DNA of 64,000 nt from the NCBI RefSeq assembly GCF_020149915.1, contig NZ_CP083760.1:2728001-2792000 (forward strand), written 5' to 3'. Shown piece after piece: positions 5,526-51,783 of this stretch (the stretch's first letter is position 1; the number at the start of each line of letters is the position of its first letter). The notes under the pieces are model-generated. The model did no database searches and was not told the DNA's origin. It saw only the letters and a program-made list of their open reading frames with translations. Both the position numbers and the translations under genes were made by a program. The stretch comes from Candidatus Sulfidibacterium hydrothermale. Lineage in GTDB: Bacteria; Bacteroidota; Bacteroidia; Bacteroidales; F082.

Positions 5526-5597
5526 TGCGGGGTGGAGCAGTGGTAGCTCGACGGGCTCATAACCCGTAGGTCGTAGGTTCGAATCCTGCCCCCGCTA
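5526..5597 (+). tRNA. Initiator tRNA-fMet (CAT)
   Basis: This is a complete cloverleaf with anticodon CAT in the loop CTCATAA. Two initiator hallmarks are present: T1 faces T72, so the first acceptor pair is unpaired, and the anticodon stem contains three consecutive G-C pairs (GGG/CCC). The T arm is GTAGG-TTCGAAT-CCTGC. CCA is not encoded; A73 is followed by CTGC. The last 26 nt (5572-5597) are repeated at the head of every downstream array unit. Confidence 0.95.
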
Positions 5598-5609
5598 CTG
5601 CAAGAAAGA

Positions 5610-5639
5610 GGCTGTTGGAATTTTCTGACAGCCTTTTTT
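5610..5639 (+). terminator. tRNA-fMet terminator, copied in every array unit
   Basis: GGCTGT (5610-5615) pairs with ACAGCC (5628-5633) and is followed by six T. The same hairpin recurs every 356 bp, at 5966, 6322, 6678, 7034, 7390 and 7746, always between a tRNA 3' fragment and the next GIY-YIG gene. In the last copy the T-run is interrupted by a C. Confidence 0.7.
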
Positions 5640-5656
5640 CGTTTTTACCCTATACT

Positions 5657-5932
5657 ATGTTCAAAGTTTACGTTTTATATTCGCAAAAATTCAACAAGAT
5701 TTACATCGGGTACACCGGTAATCTCGAAAAAAGGCTCTTGTCACATAACAAACTGGCTCATAAAGGATACACCGTGAAATTCAGACCCTGGACACTGGTT
5801 TTTTCCGAAGAATTTCCCACTAAACAGCTCGCCATGAAACGCGAAAAACAACTAAAATCGGCAAAAGGAAGACGGTTTATCTGGGAAAAAATCAAAGCTT
5901 CTGGGCTCATATCCGCCGGCTGGCGGACGTAG
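5657..5932 (+). CDS. GIY-YIG nuclease, array copy 1
   Basis: 91 aa from ATG 5657; a TTG-initiated extension to 5615 would run through the terminator and is rejected. It is a single-domain GIY-YIG protein of the UPF0213/YhbQ-like type. It has VYVLYS (the GIY strand), KIYIGYT (the YIG strand), a conserved Arg in LEKRLLSHN and the metal-binding Glu in MKREKQLKS. The last residues (SAGWRT) are encoded by the palindrome, and the TAG stop lies inside the repeated tRNA T-arm sequence. No promoter is seen directly upstream, so expression probably depends on read-through from tRNA-fMet. The substrate is unknown; tRNA or the tRNA gene is an inference from position only. Confidence 0.88.
   Translation: MFKVYVLYSQKFNKIYIGYTGNLEKRLLSHNKLAHKGYTVKFRPWTLVFSEEFPTKQLAMKREKQLKSAKGRRFIWEKIKASGLISAGWRT
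5912..5927. repeat. 16-nt palindrome TCCGCC-N4-GGCGGA at unit junctions
   Basis: TCCGCCGGCTGGCGGA is a 6-bp inverted repeat with a 4-nt centre. It closes each of the six full units (5912, 6268, 6624, 6980, 7336, 7692). It recurs at 48462-48477 in the 5S fragment. Forms with other centres occur at 49528-49543, 51195-51210 and 51617-51632 inside 23S rRNA, and TCCGTC-TTCT-GACGGA is at 48421-48436. No case was noticed inside a protein gene other than the GIY-YIG C-termini. Confidence 0.8.
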
Positions 5933-6012
5933 GTTCGAATCCTGCCCCCGCTACTGCAAGAAAGAGGCTGTTGGAATTTTCTGACAGCCTTTTTTCGTTT
6001 TTACCCTATACT

Positions 6013-6288
6013 ATGTTCAAAGTTTACGTTTTATATTCGCAAAAATTCAACAAGATTTACATCGGGTACACCGGTAATCTCGAAAAAAGGCTCTTGTCAC
6101 ATAACAAACTGGCTCATAAAGGATACACCGTGAAATTCAGACCCTGGACACTGGTTTTTTCCGAAGAATTTCCCACTAAACAGCTCGCCATGAAACGCGA
6201 AAAACAACTAAAATCGGCAAAAGGAAGACGGTTTATCTGGGAAAAAATCAAAGCTTCTGGGCTCATATCCGCCGGCTGGCGGACGTAG
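6013..6288 (+). CDS. GIY-YIG nuclease, array copy 2
   Basis: The 91-aa product is identical to copy 1 (GYTGN and LVFSEE variants), and the surrounding DNA also looks identical. All catalytic positions of the GIY-YIG fold are kept. The identity points to a very recent duplication or to gene conversion within the array. Confidence 0.88.
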   Translation: MFKVYVLYSQKFNKIYIGYTGNLEKRLLSHNKLAHKGYTVKFRPWTLVFSEEFPTKQLAMKREKQLKSAKGRRFIWEKIKASGLISAGWRT

Positions 6289-6368
6289 GTTCGAATCCTG
6301 CCCCCGCTACTGCAAGAAAGAGGCTGTTGGAATTTTCTGACAGCCTTTTTTCGTTTTTACCCTATACC

Positions 6369-6644
6369 ATGTTCAAAGTTTACGTTTTATATTCGCAAAA
6401 ATTCAACAAGATTTACATCGGGTACACCAGCAATCTCGAAAAAAGACTCTTGTCACACAACAAACTGGCTCATAAAGGATACACCGTGAAATTCAGACCC
6501 TGGACACTGGCCTTTTCCGAAGAATTTCCCACTAAACAGCTCGCCATGAAACGCGAAAAACAACTAAAATCGGCAAAAGGAAGACGGTTTATCTGGGAAA
6601 AAATCAAAGCTTCTGGGCTCATATCCGCCGGCTGGCGGACGTAG
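6369..6644 (+). CDS. GIY-YIG nuclease, array copy 3
   Basis: 91 aa. It differs from copies 1-2 by GYTSN instead of GYTGN and LAFSEE instead of LVFSEE. There are also a few silent changes, for example ACC ATG instead of ACT ATG at the start. The catalytic Tyr, Arg and Glu positions are intact. Confidence 0.88.
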   Translation: MFKVYVLYSQKFNKIYIGYTSNLEKRLLSHNKLAHKGYTVKFRPWTLAFSEEFPTKQLAMKREKQLKSAKGRRFIWEKIKASGLISAGWRT

Positions 6645-6724
6645 GTTCGAATCCTGCCCCCGCTACTGCAAGAAAGAGGCTGTTGGAATTTTCTGACAGC
6701 CTTTTTTCGTTTTTACCCTATACC

Positions 6725-7000
6725 ATGTTCAAAGTTTACGTTTTATATTCGCAAAAATTCAACAAGATTTACATCGGGTACACCAGCAATCTCGAAAAAA
6801 GACTCTTGTCACACAACAAACTGGCTCATAAAGGATACACCGTGAAATTCAGACCCTGGACACTGGCCTTTTCCGAAGAATTTCCCACTAAACAGCTCGC
6901 CATGAAACGCGAAAAACAACTAAAATCGGCAAAAGGAAGACGGTTTATCTGGGAAAAAATCAAAGCTTCTGGGCTCATATCCGCCGGCTGGCGGACGTAG
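6725..7000 (+). CDS. GIY-YIG nuclease, array copy 4
   Basis: 91 aa, identical to copy 3 in protein and, by eye, in DNA. It lies in the fourth array unit with the same upstream tRNA fragment and terminator. Confidence 0.88.
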   Translation: MFKVYVLYSQKFNKIYIGYTSNLEKRLLSHNKLAHKGYTVKFRPWTLAFSEEFPTKQLAMKREKQLKSAKGRRFIWEKIKASGLISAGWRT

Positions 7001-7080
7001 GTTCGAATCCTGCCCCCGCTACTGCAAGAAAGAGGCTGTTGGAATTTTCTGACAGCCTTTTTTCGTTTTTACCCTATACC

Positions 7081-7356
7081 ATGTTCAAAGTTTACGTTTT
7101 ATATTCGCAAAAATTCAACAAGATTTACATCGGGTACACCAGCAATCTCGAAAAAAGACTCTTGTCACACAACAAACTGGCTCATAAAGGATACACCGTG
7201 AAATTCAGACCCTGGACACTGGTTTTTTTCGAAGAATTTCCCACTAAACAGCTCGCCATGAAACGCGAAAAACAATTAAAATCGGCAAAAGGAAGACGGT
7301 TTATCTGGGAAAAAATCAAAGCTTCTGGGCTCATATCCGCCGGCTGGCGGACGTAG
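7081..7356 (+). CDS. GIY-YIG nuclease, array copy 5
   Basis: 91 aa. It carries GYTSN as in copies 3-4 but LVFFEE in place of LAFSEE, plus a silent change at the Leu codon of KQLKS (TTA for CTA). The frame is intact, so the small differences between copies have not broken the protein. Confidence 0.88.
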   Translation: MFKVYVLYSQKFNKIYIGYTSNLEKRLLSHNKLAHKGYTVKFRPWTLVFFEEFPTKQLAMKREKQLKSAKGRRFIWEKIKASGLISAGWRT

Positions 7357-7436
7357 GTTCGAATCCTGCCCCCGCTACTGCAAGAAAGAGGCTGTTGGAA
7401 TTTTCTGACAGCCTTTTTTCGTTTTTACCCTATACC

Positions 7437-7712
7437 ATGTTCAAAGTTTACGTTTTATATTCGCAAAAATTCAACAAGATTTACATCGGGTACACCAGCA
7501 ATCTCGAAAAAAGACTCTTGTCACACAACAAACTGGCTCATAAAGGATACACCGTGAAATTCAGACCCTGGACACTGGTTTTTTTCGAAGAATTTCCCAC
7601 TAAACAGCTCGCCATGAAACGCGAAAAACAATTAAAATCGGCAAAAGGAAGACGGTTTATCTGGGAAAAAATCAAAGCTTCTGGGCTCATATCCGCCGGC
7701 TGGCGGACGTAG
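7437..7712 (+). CDS. GIY-YIG nuclease, array copy 6
   Basis: 91 aa, identical to copy 5. It is the last complete copy and is followed by one more tRNA 3' fragment and terminator at 7708-7775. Confidence 0.88.
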   Translation: MFKVYVLYSQKFNKIYIGYTSNLEKRLLSHNKLAHKGYTVKFRPWTLVFFEEFPTKQLAMKREKQLKSAKGRRFIWEKIKASGLISAGWRT

Positions 7713-7792
7713 GTTCGAATCCTGCCCCCGCTACTGCAAGAAAGAGGCTGTTGGAATTTTCTGACAGCCTCTTTTCGTTTTTACCCTATACC

Positions 7793-7984
7793 ATGTTCAA
7801 AGTTTACGTTTTATATTCGCAAAAATTCAACAAGATTTACATCGGGTACACCGGCAATCTCGAAAAAAGACTCTTGTCGCATAACAAATTGGCTCATAAA
7901 GGATACACCGTGAAATTCAGACCCTGGACGCTGATCTTTTCCAACAGGCCTCCGCTCCCACTTTTCAGGTTTGTCTCAACCTGA
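7793..7984 (+). pseudogene. Truncated GIY-YIG nuclease, array copy 7
   Basis: The frame matches the other copies for about 50 residues (through FRPWTLIFS), then diverges into NRPPLPLFRFVST and a stop. The part carrying the catalytic Glu (KREKQLKS in the others) is lost, so the product should be inactive. The break falls next to an unrelated interspersed hairpin (7957-7994), which suggests the array was cut off by recombination at that repeat. This copy carries GYTGN like copies 1-2 but has its own silent changes, so it may be the oldest unit. Confidence 0.85.
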
Positions 7985-48286: not shown

Positions 48287-48408
48287 TTTAGGAAATAAGC
48301 TGTCCAATTAACACAGATGTAGTCAACAGTGCCATTCAGGCAGGCGTAATTCTTATTATTATACCCACAAAAAAAGCCCAACACAATGTGCTGAGGCTTT
48401 TAAAAATT
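48287..48408. other. Spacer with duplicated rRNA-operon tail
   Basis: It holds a hairpin (AGCC...GGCT, 48375-48398) with a T-run on the minus strand, which acts as a second terminator behind the 5S fragment. The stretch 48347-48378 is a diverged copy of 48515-48548, the tail behind the true 5S gene. CCATTCAGGCAGGCG (48332-48346) reads as an inverted copy of the sequence at 48501-48513. Confidence 0.55.
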
Positions 48409-48500
48409 CGGCGACCCGCCTCCGTCTTCTGACGGATTCGGGCAGGCGGCCTACTTTCCCATCCGCCGGCTGGCGGACAGTATCATCGGCACTGACAGGC
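48409..48500 (-). pseudogene. 5S rRNA 3'-end fragment with two palindrome insertions
   Basis: Matches to the 3' half of the true 5S gene (48578-48635) are broken twice. A 32-nt insert at 48416-48447, containing TCCGTCTTCTGACGGA, separates GGCGAC from GGCCTACTTTCCCA. TCCGCCGGCTGGCGGA at 48462-48477 replaces the 9 nt CTGGTATGG. The 5' half of 5S is missing. The copy is not a functional 5S RNA. Confidence 0.8.
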
Positions 48501-48544
48501 CCGCCTGAATGACTTAATCTCTTATTATATCCACACAAAAAAAA

Positions 48545-48867: not shown

Positions 48868-51783
<2,916 letters not shown>

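Follow-up and report, generated by a model that had tools for sequence, protein, structure and literature searches.

Why should a small nuclease gene be repeated in register with the end of an initiator tRNA? The question is raised by a tandem array directly downstream of a tRNA-fMet gene in the stretch of DNA analyzed here (the window), 64,000 nucleotides from the single-contig, 3.27-Mb genome of Candidatus Sulfidibacterium hydrothermale. We consider it probable, at roughly 70%, that the array is built from a minimal homing-type mobile element, whose GIY-YIG nuclease would break the tRNA gene and which would be copied into the break and tandemly amplified by recombination.

Organization of the Array

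The array follows an intact tRNA-Met(CAT) gene. The ARAGORN call is only Met(CAT); in our reading, the GGGCTCATAACCC arm makes it tRNA-fMet and not elongator tRNA-Met. Tandem Repeats Finder returned a 356-bp repeat of 6.7 copies and 99% matches at positions 5572–7942, and the array comprises six full units and one truncated unit. An earlier reading of the DNA made from its letters (the sequence-only reading) had described six perfect units and a truncated one. The array, its unit number, and the truncated unit stand, but the units are not perfect; they represent three unique sequences in identical pairs (1 = 2, 3 = 4, and 5 = 6), and units 3–6 differ from unit 1 at 7 of 356 positions. The identical pairs suggest a stepwise doubling of the array.

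Each unit contains a tRNA 3′ end, a terminator, and a 91-amino acid GIY-YIG gene, as that reading had it, whereas the 16-bp palindrome is no separate module but sits within a second tRNA fragment. This fragment consists of GGGCTCATA, the hairpin, and the last 27 nucleotides of the tRNA, with ACCCGTAGGT missing. We refer to such a hairpin-interrupted second copy of the tRNA as a decoy; every unit boundary is one. Because the palindrome lies inside the tRNA fragment, the final residues of the reading frame are read from that fragment. The 3′ end of the intact tRNA is taken to belong to the first unit. The features are as follows.

5526–5598, + strand: intact tRNA-Met(CAT), initiator type (ARAGORN); adjoins era in relatives
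5610–5640, + strand: terminator-like hairpin and T run after the intact tRNA, repeated every +356 bp (read by eye)
5657–5932, + strand: GIY-YIG nuclease gene of unit 1, 91 amino acids (PF01541 match, conserved columns)
5903–5911, + strand: short arm of decoy 1, GGGCTCATA, copy of tRNA positions 5560–5568, repeated every 356 bp
5912–5927, + strand: hairpin of decoy 1, TCCGCCGGCTGGCGGA (pattern search)
5928–5954, + strand: long arm of decoy 1, the last 27 nucleotides of the tRNA
6013–6288, + strand: GIY-YIG gene, unit 2
6268–6283, + strand: hairpin, decoy 2
6369–6644, + strand: GIY-YIG gene, unit 3
6624–6639, + strand: hairpin, decoy 3
6725–7000, + strand: GIY-YIG gene, unit 4
6980–6995, + strand: hairpin, decoy 4
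7081–7356, + strand: GIY-YIG gene, unit 5
7336–7351, + strand: hairpin, decoy 5
7437–7712, + strand: GIY-YIG gene, unit 6
7692–7707, + strand: hairpin, decoy 6
7793–7954, + strand: GIY-YIG gene of truncated unit 7, residues 1–54 align

The sequence TCCGCCGGCTGGCGGA is present six times in the array, and the pattern TCCGCCNNNNGGCGGA has an expected count of 0.00 in 100 shuffles of the window. Beyond position 7712, GGTTCGAATCC does not recur within the window. That the assembly had multiplied a single unit, a caveat of the sequence-only reading, is disfavored by the window genome being one contig and by arrays in other single-contig genomes.

Association of the Nuclease with tRNA Genes

A homologue (E ≤ 1e-10) occurs in 30 of 60 relatives, and a profile search found the nuclease in 188 of 296 Bacteroidota genomes sampled across the phylum. 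We compared 141 loci: three of the window genome (L001, L008, and L009); 29 + 29 loci returned by the 60-relative search and the 296-genome profile search, with the window array excluded; and 80 picked stretches, namely 77 clusters among the best-scoring places listed in the profile search and three from the 60-relative search. These 80 were chosen blind to tRNAs, except for L175, the place of L047, which was known beforehand to be without a tRNA.

Of the 141 loci, 111 have a tRNA or transfer-messenger RNA (tmRNA) gene on the same strand at a distance of up to 100 bp, and 123 have one within 300 bp (in L057 and L059, both among the 123, the nearest is an undetermined ARAGORN call), and the nearest such gene within 300 bp is on the opposite strand in none. 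In a control GIY-YIG subfamily of the same relatives, which we take to be YhbQ-like, the corresponding numbers are 0 of 30 within 100 bp and 1 of 30 within 300 bp. Homologues that never neighbor RNA genes, which would have spoken against the sequence-only reading, are thus not what is found. Some of the 18 misses lie at contig ends or in arrays that the stretch truncates; tRNA-like pieces are visible by eye in L089, L094, L128, L136, L167, and L177 and not in L067. A tmRNA as target of the L094 array was rejected, as the weak Rfam matches look like fMet-type decoys on reading; ARAGORN calls a tmRNA at L108 only. At least two nuclease matches are present in 51 of the 141 loci. Tandem copies were seen at spacings of ∼290 to 620 bp.

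The identity of the tRNA is reflected in the nuclease phylogeny more closely than host family is. A quick tree was built from the short nuclease domain (140 rows, 124 labeled); on it, the 28 RNA gene labels need 43 changes (mean 96.8 and minimum 90 in 500 shuffles), whereas host family needs 65 (shuffled mean 88.4). We count the labels as 26 RNA genes, since elongator Met accounts for two of them and that of L008 stems from a misread decoy; the L008 label, Gly(CCC), was kept, ARAGORN taking the Val-like decoy of this locus for a tRNA. Single labels spread over four (fMet), seven (Asp), and eight (Val) host families. The initiator tRNA gene, named as the target in the sequence-only reading, is thus not the only one.

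For a second set, 250 named loci were ranked by how similar their proteins are to the fMet clade, and the best 80 were taken; L292 and L311, at least, were already in the first set. A same-strand tRNA lies within 300 bp in 67 of them (65 tRNA-Met, one tRNA-Asn, and one undetermined) and in 13 there is none. By title, the hosts of the tRNA-Met loci include Bacteroidales, Flavobacteriales, Chitinophagales, Cytophagales, Sphingobacteriales, Balneolia, Ignavibacteria, and a KSB1 bin, in which tRNA-Met is 248 bp from the nuclease; because many of these hosts are metagenome bins, the odd ones may be contamination. The motif CATAACC[CT][AG]nAGGT, found in 52 of 62 filled Met tRNAs, holds the stretch that is missing from the fMet and elongator decoys.

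Filled and Element-free Sites

In relatives of the window, the tRNA-fMet gene adjoins era, and this site is filled in 3 of 11 scored genomes of the window's genus (in G004, just 188 bp lie beyond the tRNA). The window tRNA differs from those of congeners at one position, 26, a difference that two filled congeners do not share.

A second genus adds the order of parts. Among 14 fetched fMet loci without a nuclease match, an AAGCTTC-type terminator directly follows the last fMet gene in 13; the query held the post-decoy sequence of L121, so that this terminator is overrepresented among the loci found with it. The order in L121 is intact tRNA, CACCACTT..AAGTGGTG terminator, nuclease gene, decoy, and then an AAGCTTC-type terminator. 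In L263, two units carry the CACCACTT-type terminator, and the AAGCTTC type comes behind the last decoy; L264 is consistent with this order, the intact tRNA being absent from its stretch. In L265 and L269, filled loci of the same genus, the AAGCTTC type also follows the intact tRNA.

In the second named set, 43 Met loci have a displaced tRNA end. What follows the intact tRNA differs from what follows the last decoy in 23 of these (two just under the threshold); sequences with ≥20 aligned nucleotides were scored as alike. In loci of a mirror type, in which the nuclease gene is upstream of the tRNA, the sequences upstream of the decoy and of the intact tRNA differ in 14 of the 16 in which a decoy start was found (28 loci in all), which is what retention of the native promoter beside the decoy would produce. 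These comparisons support an element that inserted into the tRNA gene and brought along a tRNA 3′ end and, in many cases, a terminator of its own, with the native end and terminator now downstream. The proposal of the sequence-only reading, a minimal mobile or self-amplifying element that rebuilds the tRNA 3′ end, is likewise supported by the filled and element-free sites, the differing terminators, and the tRNA-specific clades. For its second suggestion, action on the tRNA molecule itself, we found nothing in support.

Two loci, L267 and L289, carry decoys adjoining tRNA-fMet without a nuclease match and resemble remnants or non-autonomous forms.

The Nuclease Protein

The 91-residue frame recurs every +356 bp from 5657–5932. 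The unit 1 protein matches PF01541 (E = 7.4e-18). Columns invariant in 13 diverse rows include Y5, Y16, G18, R26, H30, and E63, the columns expected to be catalytic being among the invariant ones. In an AlphaFold2 model (mean pLDDT 83.5), the secondary structure is that of a bare GIY-YIG domain, and confidence is low at the C-terminal end, where the frame enters the decoy. The nearest solved structures by sequence are the UPF0213 proteins 1ywl and 1zg2, followed by SLX1 and I-TevI; in a fold search, SLX1 ranked best (E = 1.3e-3), with no match at E ≤ 0.001. Two family members had no PHROG match at E ≤ 0.001, and the window protein P0001 had none among phage records at E ≤ 1e-5. The median dN/dS is 0.15 (21 usable of 111 pairs, the other 90 being saturated or undefined), indicating purifying selection on the nuclease. 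Internal stop codons occur in some homologues.

Related Arrangements in the Window Genome

The window genome has 15 matches to the nuclease protein, seven of which are the window array. A related gene lies downstream of tRNA-Val, with a decoy bearing a different palindrome, and a mirror arrangement is found at tRNA-Pro, where the nuclease is upstream and the 5′ half of the tRNA is copied. Of the matches outside the 141 loci, L010 has no tRNA, L014 has a tRNA-Ser ∼60 bp downstream, L013 belongs to the L008 locus as its second copy, and L011, L012, and L015 belong to the control subfamily.

Decoys also form arrays without a nuclease gene: seven units of ∼111 bp at the elongator tRNA-Met (L031:1040–1811) and two of 191 bp at tRNA-Ser(GCT) (L032:925–1447). 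These are perhaps mobilized in trans. The hairpin position in the elongator Met decoys is homologous to that in the fMet decoys.

Among the small GIY-YIG genes of this genome, L035 (C1:112582–112818) lies without a nearby tRNA and seems, by eye, to be embedded in a different small gene, flanked by short inverted copies of CCTGTCAAAT. Around the YhbQ-like GIY-YIG genes of L037 and L038, repeats of the type TCATCCTGAACGAAGTGAAGGATCT represent a possible second association of nuclease and repeat.

Proposed Mechanism

A unit is made up of a tRNA 3′ end that replaces the host's, a terminator, a bare GIY-YIG gene, and a short tRNA arm with a GC hairpin at the right edge. The comparisons support an intact tRNA that is a composite of the host's 5′ half and the element's 3′ end, the host's own 3′ end and terminator being left downstream. 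Elements of the mirror type, with the nuclease upstream of the tRNA, are placed near the D-loop. The nuclease may break the cognate tRNA gene close to or at the position that the hairpin occupies in the decoy, recombination would copy the element into the break, and the replacement end would keep the host alive. The same process of breakage and recombination between the repeated tRNA ends could expand and shrink the array. The hairpin would either remove or mask the site in the decoy or itself be the cut site. We infer breakage by the nuclease and recombination because the phage nuclease SegB (PMC13096335) and fungal mitochondrial mobile ORFs (mORFs; PMC3630166) offer models.

Several observations weigh against this proposal. 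Neither cutting by the nuclease nor movement of the element, both of which we infer, has been observed. The sole Pfam match is limited to the catalytic domain, so that a target-reading part is not evident. In 20 of the 43 Met loci, the sequences after the intact tRNA and the last decoy are alike, which fits a tandem duplication. L290, the remaining one of the 14 fMet loci without a nuclease match, carries after its tRNA a CCACTT..AAGTGG terminator like the supposedly element-borne one, and the terminator argument therefore rests on order, not on type alone. No relatives of P0001 were found in viral contigs, plasmids, or phages, and the highest protein identity between host families is 0.69 (132 proteins), with no near-identical copies. 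Similar palindromes also occur away from RNA genes. Finally, in two genera the intact tRNA does not differ in sequence between filled and element-free loci, which means that an altered site is not what protects it from self-cleavage; resistance by this route was considered and is not seen in these genera. Cutting of an unaltered intact tRNA is to be expected, except if it is a rare event, is repaired, or depends on the hairpin. How self-destruction is avoided is called an open question by the SegB authors too (PMC13096335).

If the proposal is true, this is one of the smallest mobile elements known to us, residing inside essential tRNA genes of Bacteroidota and some nearby phyla, and it would owe its survival to the tRNA piece that it carries and would break otherwise. 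The nuclease clades, with the different RNA genes that they match, would form a natural series of specificities in a nuclease of very small size. The use by homing elements of genes that are unable to change their sequence and the role of the decoy hairpins would become open to test. The element would also explain many small GIY-YIG genes beside tRNAs and tandem repeats that may be mistaken for assembly errors.

Hairpins of the Decoys

An automatic detector found an end-anchored, hairpin-interrupted copy of the locus's own tRNA in 86 of the 124 labeled loci, with control values of 0 of 620 for a wrong tRNA and 1 of 122 for the far side of the tRNA. A looser detector found decoys in 98 of 124 loci (control, 14 of 620), and the union of both, which has no control of its own, gives 106 of 124. 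The hairpin site is often recurrent for a given tRNA across host families: 36^47 or 37^48 in 6 of 9 fMet loci, 38^49 in both elongator Met loci, 50^59 or 51^60 in 10 of 15 Asp loci, and 21^22 or 22^23 in 8 of 9 mirror-type Arg loci. Sites for Ser, Ala, Leu, and Val are more mixed. The hairpin borders were set by script, and some are rough.

By eye, the stems vary on both sides (TCCGCC/GGCGGA and TCCGTC/GACGGA). The loop length varies widely, which disfavors a dyad of fixed spacing for a protein dimer. On the far side of the hairpin, copy and tRNA match in ≥90% of 63 nuclease-downstream loci for 8 nucleotides, in 75% at 11, 54% at 17, and 26% at 20; the match is biased up to 10 nucleotides, as the detector needs a run of three and scores the first 10, and is free of this bias beyond. 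When mismatches internal to the stems were counted strictly, there were 12 G-U and 12 A-C, an equality that offers no sign of RNA-level selection on the hairpin, and a looser count of 20 G-U to 10 A-C is biased because stem extension accepts G-U.

The palindrome was rejected as an exclusive mark of the element, since TCCGCCNNNNGGCGGA sites occur in 17 of 60 relatives and also off RNA genes. In G027, Rfam and ARAGORN found no RNA gene in 20 loci covering 21 of 24 palindromes. At these loci (L238–L257), TCCGCC palindromes often form the tip of other hairpin repeats, e.g. TGTCATTCTGA|..|GAAGAATCTT. The window genome has 29 TCCGCC-type palindromes, 25 of which were placed in tRNA arrays, 23S genes, and a 5S copy. 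Within the 23S rRNA gene of the window, TCCGCC-N4-GGCGGA palindromes lie at 49528–49543, 51195–51210, and 51617–51632; those at 51195 and 51617, the two compared, lie at places with other hairpin-like tips in G012 and G038, and G012 has a TCCCGA..TCGGGA palindrome at one of these two sites. At 48405–48510, adjoining the 5S gene, a degenerate second 5S rRNA-like fragment with two GC palindromes resembles the tRNA decoys.

Alternative Explanations

The recurring hairpin site for several tRNAs across host families, the variable loop, and the ∼10 conserved nucleotides beyond the hairpin would also fit hairpin-driven transposition. The protein would cut the hairpin and tRNA arms of a donor decoy instead of the intact tRNA, and the freed unit would enter tRNA genes by homology. 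RAYT or IS200-type proteins use hairpins, the structure-specific SLX1 is among the nearest solved relatives, and the safety of the intact tRNA would be explained. Palindromes of the same type occurring without the gene count against this explanation, as does the fact that we know of no GIY-YIG transposase, and we regard it as unlikely, although worth keeping in view. More speculative, and in our estimate a long shot, is that the hairpin-interrupted tRNA copy is a working part and no scar. With target sequence flanking its hairpin, it would direct the cutting by the bare 80–91-amino acid nuclease, as a DNA end or possibly as a guide RNA made beside the gene. Such elements would constitute a separate class of hairpin-directed nuclease element, retargeted between RNA genes by swapping the two arms.

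A tandem duplication of the tRNA and a neighboring nuclease gene, in which the additional tRNAs later decayed and nothing was mobile, would account for arrays of near-identical units and for the Met loci with alike flanking sequences. The more numerous Met loci with differing flanks, the displaced native-type terminator in L121, L263, and L264, the constancy of the hairpin's tRNA position across several host families, and a nuclease that tracks tRNA identity more than host family all count against it, and it was already disfavored by the filled and element-free sites. We consider this origin improbable.

Purifying selection and nuclease clades tied to one tRNA over several host families could instead reflect a device that serves the host, with the nuclease protecting the tRNA gene from integrating elements or adjusting its dosage. 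The patchy occurrence within one genus and the stop codons within some homologues make this very improbable, and because most decoys found are interrupted, tRNA dosage need not rise.

A tRNA-targeting site-specific integration system (an integrase-type satellite with the nuclease as cargo) is barely credible: the tRNA 3′ end is duplicated and rebuilt here as at integrase attachment sites, but the 356-bp unit has room for the nuclease only and no recombinase gene, mirror elements near the D-loop duplicate the 5′ half, and the second tRNA copy bears a hairpin.

Comparison with Known Systems

Among the papers listed by searches of the open-licence PMC literature, none is listed with a description of the element preferred here, a homing-type element within tRNA genes; reports on SegB and fungal mORFs turned up. 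The small UPF0213/YhbQ-like GIY-YIG proteins share the same small domain, but the YhbQ-like subfamily is not located at tRNAs. In REP/RAYT systems, short GC palindromes are linked with a small nuclease gene, a Y1 transposase. The element shares such palindromes with a small nuclease gene, but it has a GIY-YIG protein instead of a Y1 transposase, and its palindromes lie within tRNA copies.

Free-standing endonucleases of phage T4 are reported to cut at a distance of hundreds or thousands of bases from the gene that encodes them (PMC2988022), unlike the cut site proposed here. SegB of phage T6 is closer. As reported, it is a free-standing GIY-YIG nuclease that cuts inside tRNA genes at the motif RAWTSGAAC, and amplification of the T6 tRNA–segB segment needs SegB nuclease activity and recombination genes and also works in trans (PMC13096335). 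The motif is the reverse complement of the T-loop-like GTTCSAWTY. Both systems have a GIY-YIG catalytic domain, a link between nuclease and tRNA genes, and tandem tRNA–nuclease segments, whose amplification has been shown experimentally for SegB and is read from sequence here. SegB, however, is a phage gene that the accessible sections do not describe inside a tRNA with a rebuilt end or hairpin decoy (PMC13096335), and the absence of PHROG or phage matches gives no sequence kinship with phage seg genes.

The replacement of a gene end has its counterpart in fungal mitochondrial mORFs with a duplicated C terminus, reported for Allomyces atp6 and Glomus atp6, atp9, cox2, and nad3 (PMC3630166). 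Together with SegB, they show that related systems have been described; the sequence-only reading knew of none in which a free-standing GIY-YIG gene is amplified in register with a tRNA 3′ end. In the mORFs as here, an endonuclease frame lies in a host gene and carries a replacement 3′ end, the native end being displaced downstream (PMC3630166); here this order was seen in one genus, and the Met loci divide into 23 with differing and 20 with alike flanks. Unlike the mORFs, the elements described here occupy tRNA genes of a bacterial chromosome instead of mitochondrial protein genes, encode a nuclease of 80–91 amino acids, often bring their own terminator, carry a hairpin in the displaced copy, and form tandem arrays, and the rebuilt end has not diverged from the native one, the intact tRNA being identical in two genera. 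The element is not shown to belong to any named family, yet it would work like a homing element with gene-end replacement.

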